From positions 1-64,000 of the forward strand of contig CAMVJD010000012.1 of the NCBI GenBank assembly GCA_947167715.1: a stretch of DNA of 64,000 bases, written 5' to 3'. The first letter of the stretch is position 1. Each line of letters opens with the position of its first letter. A model generated the notes under the pieces. It did no database searches. It was not told where the DNA came from and saw only the letters and a list, made by a program, of their open reading frames with translations. Shown one piece after another: positions 57,136 to 63,641 of this stretch. The DNA comes from an uncultured Eubacteriaceae bacterium. Lineage in GTDB: Bacteria; Bacillota; Clostridia; Lachnospirales; CAG-274. Position numbers and translations under genes: made by a program.

Positions 57136-57801
57136 TTAAATAATGTTTGCTTGAAAAGCTATCGCCTTGCCAAGAATTCTGATACTGTCAAGGTCTCGTT
57201 TCTGATAAATCATATCGTTATATTTAGAATTTTCAGCCCTTAATATCAAGAGGTCCTGCTCGGAATAGTAGTAAACTCTTTTCAATGTTGCTTCGTTTTC
57301 TATGATTATAGCTGCTATTTCGCCGTTATCAACAGAATCTTGCTGCTTGATAAAAACAATATCCCCGTCATATATGCGTGCATTTATCATACTATCTCCT
57401 TTACAGCGGAGACAAAAATCTGCCTGAATTACATTTGTTTCACAGTATATACCGTGTTCCTCATCAGCAAATATAGGTTCGCCGCAGGCGATCTCTCCAA
57501 GCATTGGGACTTTTTTTGTAACCAACGGAAGTATATTATTGTAATAAAAATCAGTTTTTTTCTTTGGAACATCTTCTCCCATCAACCAAGCGGGATTTAC
57601 ATCCAAAGCCTCTGCAATTTTGTTCAGTTTATCTTGTTTCGGTTCAAATCTACCCGAAATATATCTGCTGATAGATGAAGCCCCAATACCTGTTTTAATT
57701 GAAAGTTCGGTAACAGTTGTCCCCGTATCTTCCATTATTTCTTGAAGTCTCGACACAAAATCTGCCACATCTTTCACGCCCTTTCCGTAATGTGAATTCA
57801 T
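57136..57801 (-). CDS. XRE-S24 (cI/LexA-like) repressor
   Basis: 221 aa if the ATG at 57801 is used; the -10 box of its own promoter overlaps that codon, so a GTG near 57777 is also possible. Residues 13-75 are an HTH (MEDTGTTVTELSIKTGIGAS, KTGIGASSISRYISGRF). Residues 95-221 are an S24 self-cleaving domain: likely cleavage at A105-C106-G107 (GEIACGEPI) and catalytic Ser137 (CKGDSMIN) and Lys174 (ATLKRVYY). It would repress the ICE's excision and transfer genes and be lifted by DNA damage (RecA) or an antirepressor. It is divergent from the 57944 gene with operators in between. Confidence 0.9.
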   Translation of the reverse strand: MNSHYGKGVKDVADFVSRLQEIMEDTGTTVTELSIKTGIGASSISRYISGRFEPKQDKLNKIAEALDVNPAWLMGEDVPKKKTDFYYNNILPLVTKKVPMLGEIACGEPIFADEEHGIYCETNVIQADFCLRCKGDSMINARIYDGDIVFIKQQDSVDNGEIAAIIIENEATLKRVYYYSEQDLLILRAENSKYNDMIYQKRDLDSIRILGKAIAFQANII

Positions 57802-57858: not shown

Positions 57859-57887
57859 TTGACAAACATTATTTCGAGTAGTATAAT
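57859..57887 (+). promoter_or_regulatory. Consensus sigma-A promoter of the 57944 operon
   Basis: TTGACA (57859-57864), 17-bp spacer, TATAAT (57882-57887). The palindrome TTTGTTC/GAACAAA (57891-57911) covers the expected start of transcription. Confidence 0.85.
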
Positions 57888-57943: not shown

Positions 57944-58234
57944 ATGGATAATTCAATTTTGGAAAAACATTCCCCCTGCATTGGCAGCAATGTTTTAGGC
58001 ATTGACGGATTTGAATGCAAGGACTCAATTTTCTGTATTATGACTAATGGCGACAGTAACTTTTTTTACTTTGGTATCGTGGAAGATTCGATTTTATTTG
58101 TAGATTCTGACCTCGATTTTGATGAGGGTATGATAAACGTATACTTGAAAGATGACGGAACGTATAAACTCTCTCGTACTGCGTTGGACAAAGAATACAA
58201 AGGTCGCGTTATAATGTCGGTAAATATTTATTAA
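57944..58234 (+). CDS. Hypothetical protein divergent from the repressor
   Basis: 96 aa, TAGGAGG site. Beta-rich (SNVLGIDGFECKDSIFCIM, SNFFYFGIVEDSILFVDSDL), acidic, no family recognised. As the first gene on the repressor's other side it would be switched on when the repressor is lost, so it might be an early excision or regulatory gene. That is inference from position. Confidence 0.65.
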   Translation: MDNSILEKHSPCIGSNVLGIDGFECKDSIFCIMTNGDSNFFYFGIVEDSILFVDSDLDFDEGMINVYLKDDGTYKLSRTALDKEYKGRVIMSVNIY

Positions 58235-58248
58235 AGGAGTAATGGCTT

Positions 58249-58413
58249 ATGAGAAATATAAAATGCCCTGAGTGCAAAAGAAGATTATTTGATATTACAG
58301 GAAAATGGTTGGGAGAAATGTTGATCACTATTAAATGCCAATCCTGCAAAAAAATAGTTGAAATAGACCTAACCCCAAATCAATGTAAGGACATCCCTAT
58401 GAGAAAAATATAG
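58249..58413 (+). CDS. Com-like small zinc-finger protein
   Basis: 54 aa, AAAGGAG site 9 bases upstream. CPEC at residues 6-9 and CQSC at about 29-32 form a two-CxxC zinc finger in a pattern (NIKCPECKRRLFDITGKW) like Com, a small phage Mu-type translation regulator. Downstream in the same transcript lie the triple RNA repeats, which could be a binding target (inference). Too short to be caught in many annotations. Confidence 0.65.
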   Translation: MRNIKCPECKRRLFDITGKWLGEMLITIKCQSCKKIVEIDLTPNQCKDIPMRKI

Positions 58414-58426
58414 ATCAATATATAAA

Positions 58427-58491
58427 GGGGAATCCGGCTACCGAGCAAGTGAGCCGAATGTGAGTTACCAAATAGCCGGAGGGGGTTCTCC
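58427..58491 (+). ncRNA. Structured RNA repeat, copy 1
   Basis: Closing stem GGGGAATCC/GGGTTCTCC with the conserved inner GCTA (58437-58440) and TAGC (58473-58476); conserved 32-base core CCGAGCAAGTGAGCC to TACCAAA (58441-58472); conserved bulge CGGAG after TAGC. The stem is 9 bp with two G-U pairs. Confidence 0.7.
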
Positions 58492-58519
58492 TAAAGTGAA
58501 ACGTTGATATGATATTTGT

Positions 58520-58574
58520 GTTCAGCTACCGAGCAACGGAGCCGAGAGTGAGTTACCAAATAGCCGGAGTGAAC
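58520..58574 (+). ncRNA. Structured RNA repeat, copy 2
   Basis: GTTCA-GCTA (58520-58528) pairs with TAGC and, after the CGGAG bulge, TGAAC (58561-58574). The core of 32 bases (58529-58560) differs from copy 1 at four positions only. Confidence 0.7.
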
Positions 58575-58674
58575 GCCGCTTTGTTATCGTGTCGATAAAT
58601 CATTCGTCTATCAATAAAACCATACCGAATGACACTTTGAACAATTCTGTTTTTTAAAACTTAATATATAAAAA

Positions 58675-58727
58675 TTCTGCTACCGAGCAACGGAGTCGAA
58701 AGTGAACTACCAAATAGCCGGAGAGAA
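58675..58727 (+). ncRNA. Structured RNA repeat, copy 3
   Basis: TTCT-GCTA (58675-58682) pairs with TAGC and, after CGGAG, AGAA (58715-58727). In its core AGT/ACT replaces AGC/GTT of the other copies, a compensating change. Its 3' half can instead pair with a downstream hairpin. Confidence 0.7.
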
Positions 58728-58768
58728 CAGCATTTAAGTCAATATCGTTTGATATTGGCTGTTCTCTC
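58721..58768 (+). promoter_or_regulatory. Long hairpin overlapping the third RNA repeat
   Basis: GAGAGAACAG (58721-58730) pairs perfectly with CTGTTCTCTC (58759-58768), with an inner CAATATC/GATATTG stem. It uses the same bases as the closing stem of copy 3, so only one fold can form at a time, as in a switch. Confidence 0.6.
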
Positions 58769-58950
58769 TATGCGTGTATGTTCTTTTCGGCTCTTTTTTT
58801 ATCCTATTTTGTGATGGCGGTCTTTCCTGCGTTGTTTAATTCAACCGCAAAGATAGATGCGGACAATTGCACAGCAATTGGCTTTTGGCTATGCCAAAAG
58901 TTGTGACAGCGCATAAGGAGAACACAAAATGAGGAGTGCAAGATCGCCGC

Positions 58951-58999
58951 CCTCCGAGATTTGAACTTGGAACAAATCAATCAATTCAAATTTCGGAGG
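58951..58999 (+). promoter_or_regulatory. 15-bp hairpin sequestering the sigma-like gene's ribosome site
   Basis: CCTCCGAGATTTGAA (58951-58965) pairs with TTCAAATTTCGGAGG (58985-58999) with one G-U pair. GGAGG is the ribosome site 8 bases before ATG 59008. The left arm read on the minus strand (GTTCAAATC...) resembles a tRNA T-arm. Confidence 0.7.
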
Positions 59000-59007
59000 A
59001 AAATAAA

Positions 59008-59508
59008 ATGGCTAAAAATTACAGAAAATCAAATTATGGAATGAATAAGTACAGCAAAGGCATAGTATACAAATATGCAGATGAAAGTATAACGGAAATC
59101 AGATTTGAAGATATATCGGCAACAGACCCGACCTTTACGGAAGAAGCATTTAAGGAATTAAAAGCAATATCAAACGAGCTTTACCACGAAGAAGATGTGT
59201 CGGATATGCACTACTACAAATATATTAAGGCTACTCTCGACGGAGAGGATGCGGGTAATTGGGTCTCAACAAAAACATTAGAGGAAGAGTTTTTTGAACA
59301 GATCGAAAATATACAGATAAAAAAAGAACTTCACACGATTTTGCTGACAAAATTGACTGAAAATCAAAGACGCAGATTGCTGCTTCACGTTCTTAAAGGT
59401 TTGTCTGAACGTCAAATAGCGGACTTGGAACTTGTTGACCGCCGTGCCGTTCACGACAGTATAGAAGCTGCACGAAAAAAAATAAAAAAATTTTTCAGAA
59501 TTTTTTAA
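59008..59508 (+). CDS. Sigma-factor-like protein (sigma-70 region 4-type HTH)
   Basis: 166 aa; start 59008 chosen because of CGGAGG. The N-terminal half is acidic and unassigned. The C-terminal about 50 residues are an HTH of sigma region-4 type (LTENQRRRLLLHVLKGLSER, QIADLELVDRRAVHDSIEAA). Such proteins in ICEs (compare Orf7 of Tn916) control excision or transfer. The extended upstream frame starts with a tRNA-derived peptide (PPRFELGTN), a common mis-annotation, and is rejected. Translation is probably kept low by the hairpin over its ribosome site. Confidence 0.8.
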   Translation: MAKNYRKSNYGMNKYSKGIVYKYADESITEIRFEDISATDPTFTEEAFKELKAISNELYHEEDVSDMHYYKYIKATLDGEDAGNWVSTKTLEEEFFEQIENIQIKKELHTILLTKLTENQRRRLLLHVLKGLSERQIADLELVDRRAVHDSIEAARKKIKKFFRIF

Positions 59509-60024
59509 AAAACTACTCCGCAAAATGCCCTTTTTTGGACGTATAGTGTAAGGGTTAAATTGGAGCAGATTTTTTAAAACTGTTTTTGATCTTAAAAACT
59601 CTTATGAATAAATAAATGAACTTTGAAAAAGAAAACTCGCAAGATAACGGCGATGTAGCATAACAACAAAACGGGTACATTCCTTTATAAGTGAGCCGTG
59701 CGGCAAATACGCCAAGACTTCCGTTATTTATTATGGAACGAGCGATAAACATTCTGCCGTAATACAAATGCTATTTGTGGGCAATGACCTTATAAGGGGA
59801 CAATGATACTTCCGCACAGTCACAGTCCGAGCGTTAAGAGCGTCACAGGCAATGAGTGTGGTTTCGATATAGTCGGAAAGGTGTAGATCCTATGGAGCAG
59901 TTTCGCAAGCTGCCGCCCGTAATGTTTTTTATTCTAATATCAGAAACCAGAAAATCAATTTAATGTATATGATTTTTTGATTTGTGCTATTAAGCATATA
60001 TTCCAAAGAAAGGGGGTAACTGTT
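59509..60024. other. 516-base gap before the DUF6870 gene
   Basis: No supported gene. A possible 15-residue peptide (59616-59663) has no ribosome site. The region 59700-59930 has low coding potential but several short pairings (e.g. GCAG/CTGC near 59899-59914; repeated GAGCGT around 59829-59843), so a leader RNA or recombination site is possible. A Tn-like upstream region of the recombinases is often conserved here. Confidence 0.5.
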
Positions 60025-60278: not shown

Positions 60279-60307
60279 TTGCATATTCCGCAAAGCTATG
60301 GTACAAT
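60279..60307 (+). promoter_or_regulatory. Promoter of the large serine recombinase operon
   Basis: TTGCAT (60279-60284), 17-bp spacer, TACAAT (60302-60307); an 85-base leader precedes the ATG at 60399. Confidence 0.65.
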
Positions 60308-60398
60308 AAATCTTGGAAAAAGAACTGAATATAATAATTCAAACTCAAATCTCCTTGATTTTGCGGGACTATGCCGTAAAATTATAGGAGGTTTTTTT

Positions 60399-62012
60399 AT
60401 GCCAAAATACTATGCAATAAACTATGTCAGACTTTCTTATACAGACGATAGGACCTGCGAAAGCGACAGTATTACAAACCAAAAGAAATATATTGAAGAA
60501 TTTGTCAAGAAAAATCCAGATATTGAGGTCGTAGATGTTAAAGTCGATGACGGATATTCGGGCATCGTATTTGACCGCCCTGCGTTCAAGGAAATGATAG
60601 AAGATATTAAAAGCGGTAAAATAAACTGCGTTATAGTAAAAGACCTTTCAAGGCTGGGCAGAGAATACAACGAAACATTTACATACCTGCGGAAAGTTTT
60701 TCCTGCATTGGGTGTACGCTTCATTGCCATAAACGATAACATTGATACGGCGAAAGAGGCAATAACAAACGATTTGTCAATATCTTTCAAAGGTGTTATG
60801 AATGACGAATACTGCCGCGATATATCCATAAAAACAAGAACGGCATTGAACATCAAAAGAAAAAACGGCGATTATGTGGGTGCAACACCCGTTTATGGCT
60901 ACAAAAAGTCAGAAGAAAATAATAACCGGCTCGTTATTGATGATTATGCCGCAAGCATCGTAAAGGATATATTCAAGATGCGTATCGACGGCATAAGTGC
61001 CGATAAAATTGCGGCACAACTCAATGATAAGGGCGTACTTTCTCCGAGAGAATATAAGAAAGACAACAATATACCTCTTCCGAGAAACGGCTACTGCGAC
61101 AAAGCCAATTCCAAATGGTCGGCTACTACAATAATCCGTATACTCAAAGATGAGATCTACACCGGTAAACTCATTCAGGGCAAGCAAGGCACACCGAATT
61201 ACAAAATCAAAGAACTTGTCAAGCGTTCCGAGGACGAACTTTTCATTACCGAAAACGCCCACGAGGCTATAATCAGCAAACACGATTTTGACCTTGTTCA
61301 AAAGCTGATGCAGCTGGACACAAGAATATCTCCCAAAACAGACAGATTACATCTGTTTTCGGGAATGCTTATTTGCGGCTGCTGCGGCAATCGTATGACC
61401 CGAAAAACCGTCGCTTACAAGGGGAATAAATATTTTTACTACTACTGCCCCACAGGAAAAAAGAACGGATGCAAGGGCGAAAATATGGTCAAGGAAGATG
61501 ATCTGACCGAATGTGTGACCGAAAGCATACAAGCATATATCAAAAATGTGACCTCATTGCAGGATGTGTTGTCGGGCATTGACAGCTCGGCGATAAATGC
61601 CGAAAGATGCGGCAGAATAAAAACGCAGATAGCCGAGATCCAGAAACAGCTGAAAAAGACAGCCGATTTTAAGTCTACTCTTTACGAAAACTTTATTTCG
61701 GGCATTCTCGATAAAGACGATTACAAAGCCTTAAAAGCCACATATTCAAAAGACGAACAGAAATTAAACGATACTATAAAAACATTGGAGTCGGAACTTG
61801 ATGAATGTGTGAATAACACTTCAAAAAAGGCTTTGTGGACAGAACACTTCAAACAGTTTGAAAACATATCGGAATTAGACCGAAACATAGTTGTTCAGCT
61901 TATTGTAAGCATAAAGATATTTGACAAAACTCATTTACAGATAACCTATAACTTTGAAGATGAATACGAACAGGCTTTGTCTGTATTGGAAAATATGACG
62001 GAGGCGGTATAA
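60399..62012 (+). CDS. Large serine recombinase 1 (site-specific integrase)
   Basis: 537 aa; start 60399 follows TAGGAGG, and upstream in-frame start 60279 is within the promoter. Catalytic domain: NYVRLSYTDD with Ser13, KDLSRLGREYNE; recombinase domain (GATPVYGYKKSEENN, WSATTIIRILKDEIYTGK); zinc ribbon (ICGCCGNRMTRK, CPTGKKNGCKGE); coiled-coil and C-terminal part. This class integrates and excises ICEs without host sites of great length. It ends exactly at the ATG of recombinase 2 and shares a transcript with it. Confidence 0.95.
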   Translation: MPKYYAINYVRLSYTDDRTCESDSITNQKKYIEEFVKKNPDIEVVDVKVDDGYSGIVFDRPAFKEMIEDIKSGKINCVIVKDLSRLGREYNETFTYLRKVFPALGVRFIAINDNIDTAKEAITNDLSISFKGVMNDEYCRDISIKTRTALNIKRKNGDYVGATPVYGYKKSEENNNRLVIDDYAASIVKDIFKMRIDGISADKIAAQLNDKGVLSPREYKKDNNIPLPRNGYCDKANSKWSATTIIRILKDEIYTGKLIQGKQGTPNYKIKELVKRSEDELFITENAHEAIISKHDFDLVQKLMQLDTRISPKTDRLHLFSGMLICGCCGNRMTRKTVAYKGNKYFYYYCPTGKKNGCKGENMVKEDDLTECVTESIQAYIKNVTSLQDVLSGIDSSAINAERCGRIKTQIAEIQKQLKKTADFKSTLYENFISGILDKDDYKALKATYSKDEQKLNDTIKTLESELDECVNNTSKKALWTEHFKQFENISELDRNIVVQLIVSIKIFDKTHLQITYNFEDEYEQALSVLENMTEAV

Positions 62013-63641
62013 ATGGCAAGGAAAAGCAGAAAAAATATAGCTGTATCGGAAACAACCGAAATAAATACACCTGTTTGTATAAGAACAGTGCAATATATCA
62101 GGTTATCCGTTGAGGACAGCAGCAACAAAGGTAATTCCATTGAAAACCAAAAGTTGATACTCGATGATTTTATTGCACAGCATCCCGATATGCAATGCGT
62201 AGGTGTGTATATCGACAACGGAACTACGGGTACAAACTTTAATAGACCCGAATTTCAAAAGCTTACGGCTGATATTGAAGCGGGCAAAATAGATTGTGTC
62301 GTCGTAAAAGACCTTTCAAGGCTTGGCAGAAACAGCATTGATACGGGCTTTTATATCGAAAGATACTTCCCAGAACACAACATAAGATTTATTGCGGTAA
62401 ACGATAACTATGACACCGCCGATCCAAAAGCAAATAATGGCTTAATGTTGTATCTTAAAAACATTATCAACGAAGCGTATGCCCTTGATATTGGCAAAAA
62501 AATAAAAACACAGCGAAAACAAGCTATGCGTGAGGGTCAATATGTTGCCGCAAGAGCAATATACGGATATATCAAAGACCCGAATGACAAGCATAAACTT
62601 ATTGTAAATCCCGATACCGCACCTATCGTCAAAATGATATTTGAAAGTTATGCAGGTGGGAATACCAAAAGAAGTATATGCAACAAACTTATAAATAGCG
62701 GCATACCCGCACCGGGAAGTTATGATTACAAAGGTGTGTTAAAAAATACTGTTTCTAAGGCTTGGACTTCAAGATCACTGGAACATATATTAACCAGAGA
62801 AATATATACGGGTAAACTTGTACAGGGCAGAACCGCAAAATGCAACCACAAGCGGGTAAATCAAACCTCGGATAAGTGGATAACGGTCGATGGCACCCAT
62901 GAGGCTATTATATCCCAAGAATTGTTTGATAAGGCACAGCAGAGAATTGTAAAGGCAAAAGAAGATCATAGAACAAAACTGACAGATGCCTATACTGAAA
63001 ATATTTTTAAGGGTAAGATAGTATGCGGCTGCTGTGGTCGCAGTATGATACGAATCAGACAACGCCGCATAACAACAAAAGACAGGTACATTTTCCTTTG
63101 TGTCTCAAATCAGGTAAAGAGCAATACCTGTGATGCCGGCAAAATTTACGAGGATGAGATATTCGATGTTATTTTGACAGTTCTCAGCACTCAAATAGAC
63201 ATACTTGTCGATAATAAAAATAAGCTGTACGACCTGCTTTACGATAAATCGAGGATAGCCGAGCAAAACAAAGAACTTCAAAGGCTGAAAGCATATATTT
63301 CTCAAAATCGTAATTATTTAAGCACTTTATATGAAAATCTTGTAAATAATATTATTACTGCCGAAGAATATAAAGATTTGCGGGAAGTATATGCACAAAA
63401 AATATCGGATGCCGTTCACTCGGCAAACGATATTGAAAACAAGCAAAACAGACTTAAGCGTGAATATGATAAGTTTTGTGAGACCGAAAATATGGTATCG
63501 GCTCTTTTAAAGGACGAAAACTTCACAAAGAAACTTATAGACGCGCTTATTGATAAGATAACGGTTTACAGCGATAACCGTATAGAAATAAAATATACAT
63601 TCGACAATGAATTTAATACGGAGGTGTGGAACAATGAATGA
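62013..63641 (+). CDS. Large serine recombinase 2
   Basis: 542 aa, GGAGGCGG site, starting right after the first recombinase stop. Catalytic Ser32 in QYIRLSVEDSSNKGNSIENQ, KDLSRLGRNSIDTGF; recombinase domain (ARAIYGYIKDPND, WTSRSLEHILTREIYTGK); zinc ribbon (VCGCCGRSMIR, C-term CDAGK); long coiled coil. It has an N-terminal extension of about 25 residues compared with recombinases 1 and 3. Probably acts with its neighbours, since the genes overlap or abut. Confidence 0.95.
   Translation: MARKSRKNIAVSETTEINTPVCIRTVQYIRLSVEDSSNKGNSIENQKLILDDFIAQHPDMQCVGVYIDNGTTGTNFNRPEFQKLTADIEAGKIDCVVVKDLSRLGRNSIDTGFYIERYFPEHNIRFIAVNDNYDTADPKANNGLMLYLKNIINEAYALDIGKKIKTQRKQAMREGQYVAARAIYGYIKDPNDKHKLIVNPDTAPIVKMIFESYAGGNTKRSICNKLINSGIPAPGSYDYKGVLKNTVSKAWTSRSLEHILTREIYTGKLVQGRTAKCNHKRVNQTSDKWITVDGTHEAIISQELFDKAQQRIVKAKEDHRTKLTDAYTENIFKGKIVCGCCGRSMIRIRQRRITTKDRYIFLCVSNQVKSNTCDAGKIYEDEIFDVILTVLSTQIDILVDNKNKLYDLLYDKSRIAEQNKELQRLKAYISQNRNYLSTLYENLVNNIITAEEYKDLREVYAQKISDAVHSANDIENKQNRLKREYDKFCETENMVSALLKDENFTKKLIDALIDKITVYSDNRIEIKYTFDNEFNTEVWNNE

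Follow-up and report, generated by a model that had tools for sequence, protein, structure and literature searches.

An RNA motif in three copies beside a zinc-ribbon gene

The DNA analyzed here is a stretch of 64,000 nt (the window) from an uncultured Eubacteriaceae bacterium, comprising positions 1 to 64,000 of the forward strand of contig CAMVJD010000012.1 (assembly GCA_947167715.1). Between a gene encoding a small zinc-ribbon protein and a gene whose product resembles sigma-70 region 4, it carries three copies of an RNA motif, the last of which is overlapped by a long hairpin competing for the same bases (Table 1). A sequence-only reading of this region had proposed both the three copies and the competition. 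The three copies are real, and the window's own genome holds no further copy beyond them. In copy 3, stem P1 is formed by 58680-58688/58717-58723 and stem P2 by 58692-58697/58704-58711, with an apical loop of the form C...GA.

Table 1. Features of the switch locus, given as positions in the window (CM, covariance model; RBS, ribosome-binding site; HTH, helix-turn-helix)
Feature	Position	Strand	Details
RNA motif copy 1	58431..58488 (~54-nt repeat 58433-58486)	+	P1/P2 hairpin with strong outer clamp GGGGAATCC/GGGTTCTCC; CM 65.2 bits
RNA motif copy 2	58519..58576 (~54-nt repeat 58521-58574)	+	P1/P2 hairpin with outer clamp GTTCA/TGAAC; CM 69.5 bits
RNA motif copy 3, presumed antiterminator	58673..58730 (~54-nt repeat 58675-58728)	+	CM 75.5 bits, E 1.4e-18
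Competing hairpin of the sequence-only reading	58720..58769	+	11 bp, 58721-58731/58758-58768; inner stem 58740-58746/58751-58757
Two-tier terminator	58692..58800	+	Outer stem around the competing hairpin, then T58794-T58800; 0/60 shuffles as good
Zinc-ribbon protein (Cys4, 54 aa) with distant similarity to Com, putative RNA-binding regulator	58249..58413	+	PHROG 6417 'translational regulator', E 1.6e-4
Sigma-70 region-4-like gene, the nearest larger gene downstream of the switch	59008..59508	+	PF08281, E 2.4e-6, 27.6 bits vs cut-off 25.7
Consensus promoter TTGACA-17-TATAAT towards the zinc-ribbon gene and switch	57859..57887	+	12/12 positions
Divergent HTH and S24-peptidase repressor gene (cI/LexA-like)	57136..57801	-	PF00717, E 3.8e-23; PF01381, E 3.9e-10
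Hairpin CCTCCGAGATTTGAA/TTCAAATTTCGGAGG covering the RBS of the sigma-like gene	58951..58999	+	15 bp; 1/200 shuffles folds as well

Copy 3 is predicted to fold as an antiterminator or within a two-tier terminator

The bases that close copy 3 had been proposed to pair with a downstream segment over 10 bp. The pairing exists and is slightly longer, with GAGAGAACAGC and GCTGTTCTCTC forming 11 Watson-Crick pairs plus a possible extra G-U pair at 58720/58769, and it encloses the second, 7-bp stem that had also been described. The segment 58715-58775 folds with -26.1 kcal/mol (z -5.38), and 0/200 dinucleotide shuffles were as stable. The 3' strand of copy 3 can be used in its own P1 or in the 11-bp hairpin, not in both, and when growing transcripts were folded, the structure of minimum free energy (MFE) was the P1/P2 motif up to 58763 and the competing hairpin from 58769. 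Thus, the two folds of copy 3 are mutually exclusive in computation, in agreement with the switch that the sequence-only reading had seen in them.

It had also been noted, correctly, that no T run directly follows the competing hairpin, and an effect upon RNA stability, processing, or protein access rather than termination was suggested. As an alternative to termination, this is not supported. From about 58787-58793 of the growing transcript, the P2 strand 58692-58710 pairs with 58776-58794 and thereby encloses the competing hairpin in an outer stem that abuts seven T, and the relatives of the element mostly have plain intrinsic terminators; protein access is retained only in another role, as the presumed trigger of the switch. 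An alternative terminator stem (58716-58729/58779-58792) can form ahead of the same T tract. Over the segment 58673-58800, the predicted energies are -47.5 kcal/mol for the two-tier structure, -39.8 kcal/mol for the alternative stem, and -25.4 kcal/mol with P1/P2 enforced. In these folding models, an intrinsic terminator has the competing hairpin as its inner tier, and the role of antiterminator falls to the motif fold of copy 3; a hairpin passed over because no T run follows it can still belong to a terminator, as its inner tier. Because the terminator is far more stable than P1/P2, the motif must be held by something for transcription to continue.

Relatives of the motif in Clostridia and their phages

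Patterns of the exact type detected relatives in 4/48 genomes of the family and 6/392 genomes of the order (the window's genome is counted in both), as well as in 8 viral contigs. An initial pattern search of viral sequences had yielded 59 stretches, none of which holds the full motif at ≤9 mismatches. In a broader search of contigs, 10/15 stretches, all from Bacillota and mostly Clostridia, carry the element and 5 were chance matches. A covariance model of the motif (R1) identified it in 10/391 genomes of the class, the window's own included, in some cases with an altered and longer P2. With a gapped pattern, 101 viral stretches were matched, for which the chance expectation of ~2 is a rough estimate rather than a tool-computed value; only part of these became loci (74 new), all of which were scanned with R1. 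In total, R1 gave 103 matches in 96 sources, of which 91 are distinct; L072, L073, L086, L092, and L095, near-copies of other loci, are not among the 96; L092 comes from the lysogen C. vincentii DSM 10228. It should be noted that the set of 88 distinct elements used to assess termination excludes L121, L148, L166, and the duplicate of the latter, L168, which were taken for chance matches on visual inspection. The same loci and L184 were left out of the counts for neighboring genes, folding, P2 triplets, arm swaps, Shine-Dalgarno (SD) pairing, and downstream terminators, while L121 and L148 are still inside the 75 elements assessed for an upstream zinc ribbon.

A search of plasmids returned no match to the element, and searching for related loci with a sigma-like protein returned no relatives. 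Among phages, blastn queries of four elements and a tblastn query of a single zinc ribbon led to one named phage (PV036453). By eye, the setting appears to be phages mostly, together with an integrative element in the window. No Rfam 15 family exceeded its gathering score at the element in any of 15 sources (the window and 14 homologous loci), and at E values up to 10 the region 58380-58960 gave just weak, chance-like matches. Among open-licence papers, as far as their titles and the opening lines of their abstracts go, no such element is named. The candidate-RNA tables of one study, which from the portion seen describes thousands of candidate RNAs from microbiomes, may hold it unnamed (PMC8040213). 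Accordingly, the RNA family and its putative Com-like zinc-ribbon partner were found neither in Rfam 15 nor in the literature searched, though attenuation by an antiterminator hairpin is itself already known.

Competition with a terminator across the family

In 83/88 distinct elements, the pairing between the motif's own strand and a segment that ends at a T run is better than in all 60 shuffles, or in 83/91 when the rows judged by eye to be chance matches are put back. The exceptions are copies 1 and 2 of the window, L167 and L158 (1/60 each), and L184. When folded in isolation, the motif forms the P1 core in 85/87 cases, and when the complete terminator is included, P1 is lost in 84/87 and the terminator arm is paired into the motif, which extends the mutual exclusion proposed for copy 3 to its relatives. 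An element's own arm also binds better than 95% of swapped arms in 35/45 representatives, with a mean of -14.9 vs -7.2 kcal/mol.

The terminator is completed 20-100 nt after the P1/P2 hairpin, and two designs recur. The first is a plain terminator with the arm AAAUNGCCGGA... (L070, L114, and L134 among others); in the second, which is seen in some elements, the T tract behind the initial hairpin is poor and another arm with a good tract comes after it (L071, L096, and copy 3 of the window). Either arm of the motif can serve the terminator, and in several relatives the first T run comes directly after the AAAUNGCCGGA arm. At the two-copy loci L135, L147, L076, and L109, each copy has a terminator of its own.

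Conservation and covariation of the motif

The consensus of the motif is UaCCGaGC(A/C)A-(C)GG-NNN-C-loop-GA-N'N'N'-a-CC-AAAUNGCCGGA. In an alignment fitted to the model, 98.4% of the cells are paired, 8/13 pairs have changed on both sides, and the covariation score is 0.299 vs 0.090 after shuffling. Independently of the covariance model, the P2 triplets are complementary in 78/84 elements (2/87 could not be parsed, and 84 rows were left after collapsing); the pairs seen include AGC/GCU, AGU/ACU, CAC/GUG, AUC/GAU, GUC/GAC, and AAC/GUU, among others. Counted as distinct combinations, 11/16 are complementary, compared with a mean of 3.6 and a maximum of 9 in shuffled sets. The structure of the presumed antiterminator has thus been kept by compensatory changes, with P2 and the outer P1 pair as the evidence. 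Since P1 hardly varies beyond this outer pair and is otherwise near-invariable, the support for it comes mostly from conservation and folding rather than from covariation. The apical loop of P2 has the C in 76/84 elements and the GA in 72/84. In one locus, L108 (1501-1601), a copy of the motif has an insertion of ~43 nt at the apex of P2 and an unaltered core.

The zinc-ribbon gene upstream of the motif

A CxxC..CxxC frame lies within 500 nt upstream of the motif on the same strand in 63/75 elements with enough sequence, compared with 0/75 on the opposite strand, 0/75 downstream, 1/75 downstream on the opposite strand, and 13/989 random stretches. Degenerate zinc-ribbon frames were recognized by eye at L074, L160, L116, and L109 (two copies). 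The profile of these zinc ribbons aligns pairwise with Mu Com (hhalign) at 94.7% (E 6.4e-8), a weak match over 31 columns to which the Cys4 spacing contributes much. PHROG 6417 is matched by 19/27 of the zinc ribbons and PHROG 13819 (gpCom) by 6/27, while PF10122 is matched by 2/27 at E ≤0.01 and not by the window's protein at E values up to 0.1. Formal membership in PF10122 was rejected, as the curated Pfam cut-off is not reached, and a genome search with PF10122 itself gave a match in 1/146 genomes, the window's genome not among them. When 245 genomes were searched with the zinc-ribbon profile, the four strongest matches (E <1e-15), including that of the window, all lie beside the RNA; the other loci, fetched mostly by this profile, are without it, such that 4/31 loci in total carry the RNA. 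In L074 (upstream of 3108, minus strand), a stop after the first CxxC truncates the zinc-ribbon gene, and the adjacent RNA element is intact.

Neighboring genes in the window and in related loci

A Pfam scan of the four proteins by the switch (57136-57801, 57944-58231, 58249-58410, and 58936-59505) gave S24/HTH, none, zinc ribbon, and sigma region 4, respectively, and no CAT RNA-binding domain of the BglG/LicT type was detected in these four. The arrangement of promoter, divergent repressor, and switch resembles the lambda pR-cro-nut-tR1 layout. In most relatives, a gene starts ~50-180 nt downstream of the motif, and among ten relatives sampled this gene matches sigma-70 region 4 in seven, five of them over the cut-off. 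Beyond the sigma-like gene, several loci have phage early genes, such as SNF2-like helicases, which were named by reading the sequences. In the window, the 5' arm of the hairpin covering the RBS is overlapped by an 11-codon frame (58929-58964), an arrangement that resembles an additional, translational layer of control exerted by a leader peptide. In L096 (5560-5660), L087, L089, and L101, another TCGGCTC(C)-like segment, present in addition to the terminator arm, lies right before the downstream gene and can pair with the RBS of that gene or with the GGAGYC strand of the motif. Positions 59800-59895, just past the sigma-like gene, match the pemK RNA of Rfam (RF02913; 39.4 bits, E 0.0013), which is the sole Rfam match in the window. 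Two consecutive large serine recombinase-like genes were recognized by eye at 60279-62012 and 62013-63641 and probably serve to integrate the element that bears the switch.

A putative attenuator and its alternatives

We favor, with moderate confidence, a reading in which the motif provides the antiterminator half of an attenuator of transcription in mobile elements, with a Com-like protein as the trigger and the sigma-like early gene as the target; judged from sequence, Clostridia and relatives would carry such attenuators in their phages and mobile elements. The P1/P2 hairpin would fold first on the nascent transcript. The Com-like zinc ribbon, made from the same transcript, would then bind the apical C...GA loop of P2 and hold P1/P2, such that the terminator is prevented and the polymerase reads into the sigma-like gene and the early operon, whereas without the protein the more stable terminator would win. 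Both the binding of the protein and the direction of control are predictions in this scheme. The Com-like protein is the likely trigger because the P2 loop keeps its C and GA and the gene neighborhood fits. From the portion of the source seen, Mu Com binds a hairpin loop of the type 5'-CC(N)2-3GAG-3', in which the GA is protected (PMC6483171). Copies 1 and 2 of the window may be extra protein-binding sites whose terminator was lost or never present.

Several observations weigh against this attenuator. Within the window, overlap with a terminator is confined to copy 3, as no terminator of their own was found for copy 1 (8/60 shuffles equally good) or copy 2 (20/60), and P1 is not seen in the best fold of copy 1 when it is taken with the R1 borders. 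The elements are kin to each other, so the counts are not independent. A clean CxxC..CxxC frame upstream is missing from 10/73 real elements, and at L183, L144, L159, L128, and L145 there is not even a degenerate one. The relatives' zinc ribbons (~45-60 aa) are only 25-44% identical to that of the window and are less conserved than the RNA core (P1 and the GAGCAA/CAAAU loop). Lastly, the resemblance to the Mu target is incomplete: the spacer of 2-3 nt given for Mu Com in the portion of PMC6483171 seen is mostly longer here, the closing pair here is C-G or U-A, and R1 gave nothing above 5.2 bits in the Mu com-mom region, so that a match there was rejected.

Since the core outranks the zinc ribbons in conservation, a host factor or small ligand would also fit. 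The same attenuator might then be triggered by a small molecule or host protein acting upon the core, with the zinc-ribbon gene a mere neighbor or acting upon the SD hairpin. The near-invariance of the core across lineages (32/58 columns invariant in an alignment of 14 sequences) and the elements lacking a clean zinc-ribbon frame both speak for this alternative, which we consider a minor contender given the strong upstream association of the zinc ribbon compared with random stretches, the presence of the RNA at all four of the strongest protein-profile loci, and downstream genes that are phage regulators rather than metabolic. The invariant core may additionally be read by a host factor while a Com-like protein serves as the trigger. 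A more speculative proposal, to which we assign a similarly small chance, combines a Com-type protein with a bipartite RNA site, such that a host factor or the polymerase reads the core and the phage protein reads the C...GA loop. This would constitute a new class of phage antitermination with an N-nut-like complex on the nascent transcript, which copies in tandem, as exemplified by the locked copies 1 and 2 of the window, would load. If true, such a switch would control early genes widely among the phages and integrative elements of Clostridia.

It is rather unlikely that the element is a processive antitermination site in the style of lambda nut, HK022 put, or conAn, for which the overlapping terminator would be the first of many to be passed. 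Its place in the operon is like that of nutR in lambda pR-cro-nutR-tR1, the window has three copies ahead of one terminator, and the P1 core and apical loop would supply one host site and one phage site. However, in the 4 kb downstream of 49 loci, terminators on the same strand are not in excess (16 vs 23 on the opposite strand), and processive antitermination with many downstream terminators was rejected on this count. The missing enrichment, together with tandem copies that each have a terminator, favors local attenuation, as does the overlap of the element with its own terminator throughout most of the family.

Even less credible is a translational switch like that of Mu Com-mom, in which the protein and the RNA would mainly open the hairpin hiding the RBS of the sigma-like gene. 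Strong SD hairpins are present in the window and in many relatives (e.g. L089, L101, and L177), and Mu Com acts in this way according to the portion of PMC6483171 seen. Yet, by MFE folding the SD is paired in 35/60 cases vs 30.8 expected from shuffles, which is not significant, and a plain terminator combined with an open SD is common (L070, L093, L097, and L076); conserved SD sequestration was rejected as the main mechanism. Finally, that the hairpin simply acts on RNA stability, is cut by an RNase, or arose through duplication of sequence, with no switching, would agree with the missing T run next to the copy 3 hairpin itself, but we regard it as nearly negligible, since relatives whose arms differ greatly still show competition with a terminator, and a hairpin without termination was rejected by the terminator test, the folds of growing transcripts, and the loss of P1 in relatives.

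For the timing of early genes in the many phages and integrative elements of gut and rumen anaerobic Clostridia, the attenuator would offer a pair of a cis-element and a trans-acting protein open to testing. The RNA recurs in close to a hundred distinct elements and has no entry in Rfam 15, and with its presumed partner it may constitute a compact RNA-protein pair whose target loop is of a known type.

Comparison with known systems

The RAT hairpins bound by BglG and LicT are likewise short antiterminators that share sequence with the 5' arm of an intrinsic terminator, and a protein is presumed to hold the present hairpin too. The differences are that the presumed partner is a Com-like zinc ribbon rather than a CAT-domain regulator of a sugar operon, that the hairpin has the P1/P2 form with a bulged A and a C...GA loop, and that the setting is the early genes of mobile elements. 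Lambda N-nut and HK022 put are systems of processive antitermination that rely upon a leader RNA at the start of an early operon, and they share this position with the element described here.

A further example of processive antitermination by protein and RNA is conAn, in the leader of the conjugation operon of pLS20, as described in the portion of PMC8955417 seen. Judged from this description, it likewise has its RNA element at the start of the operon. Unlike these processive systems, the present element overlaps its own terminator, and the 4 kb that follow are not enriched in terminators. The Mu Com-mom system resembles it in having a small zinc-finger protein encoded just upstream of the target RNA and a loop with C and GA, whereas the action of Mu Com is on mom translation, and the portion of that source seen describes no terminator (PMC6483171), as opposed to the attenuator proposed here, which overlaps one. 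If the attenuator is as we propose, the Com family would grow beyond a single translational activator, that of Mu, and take in a broad set of proteins acting in antitermination.
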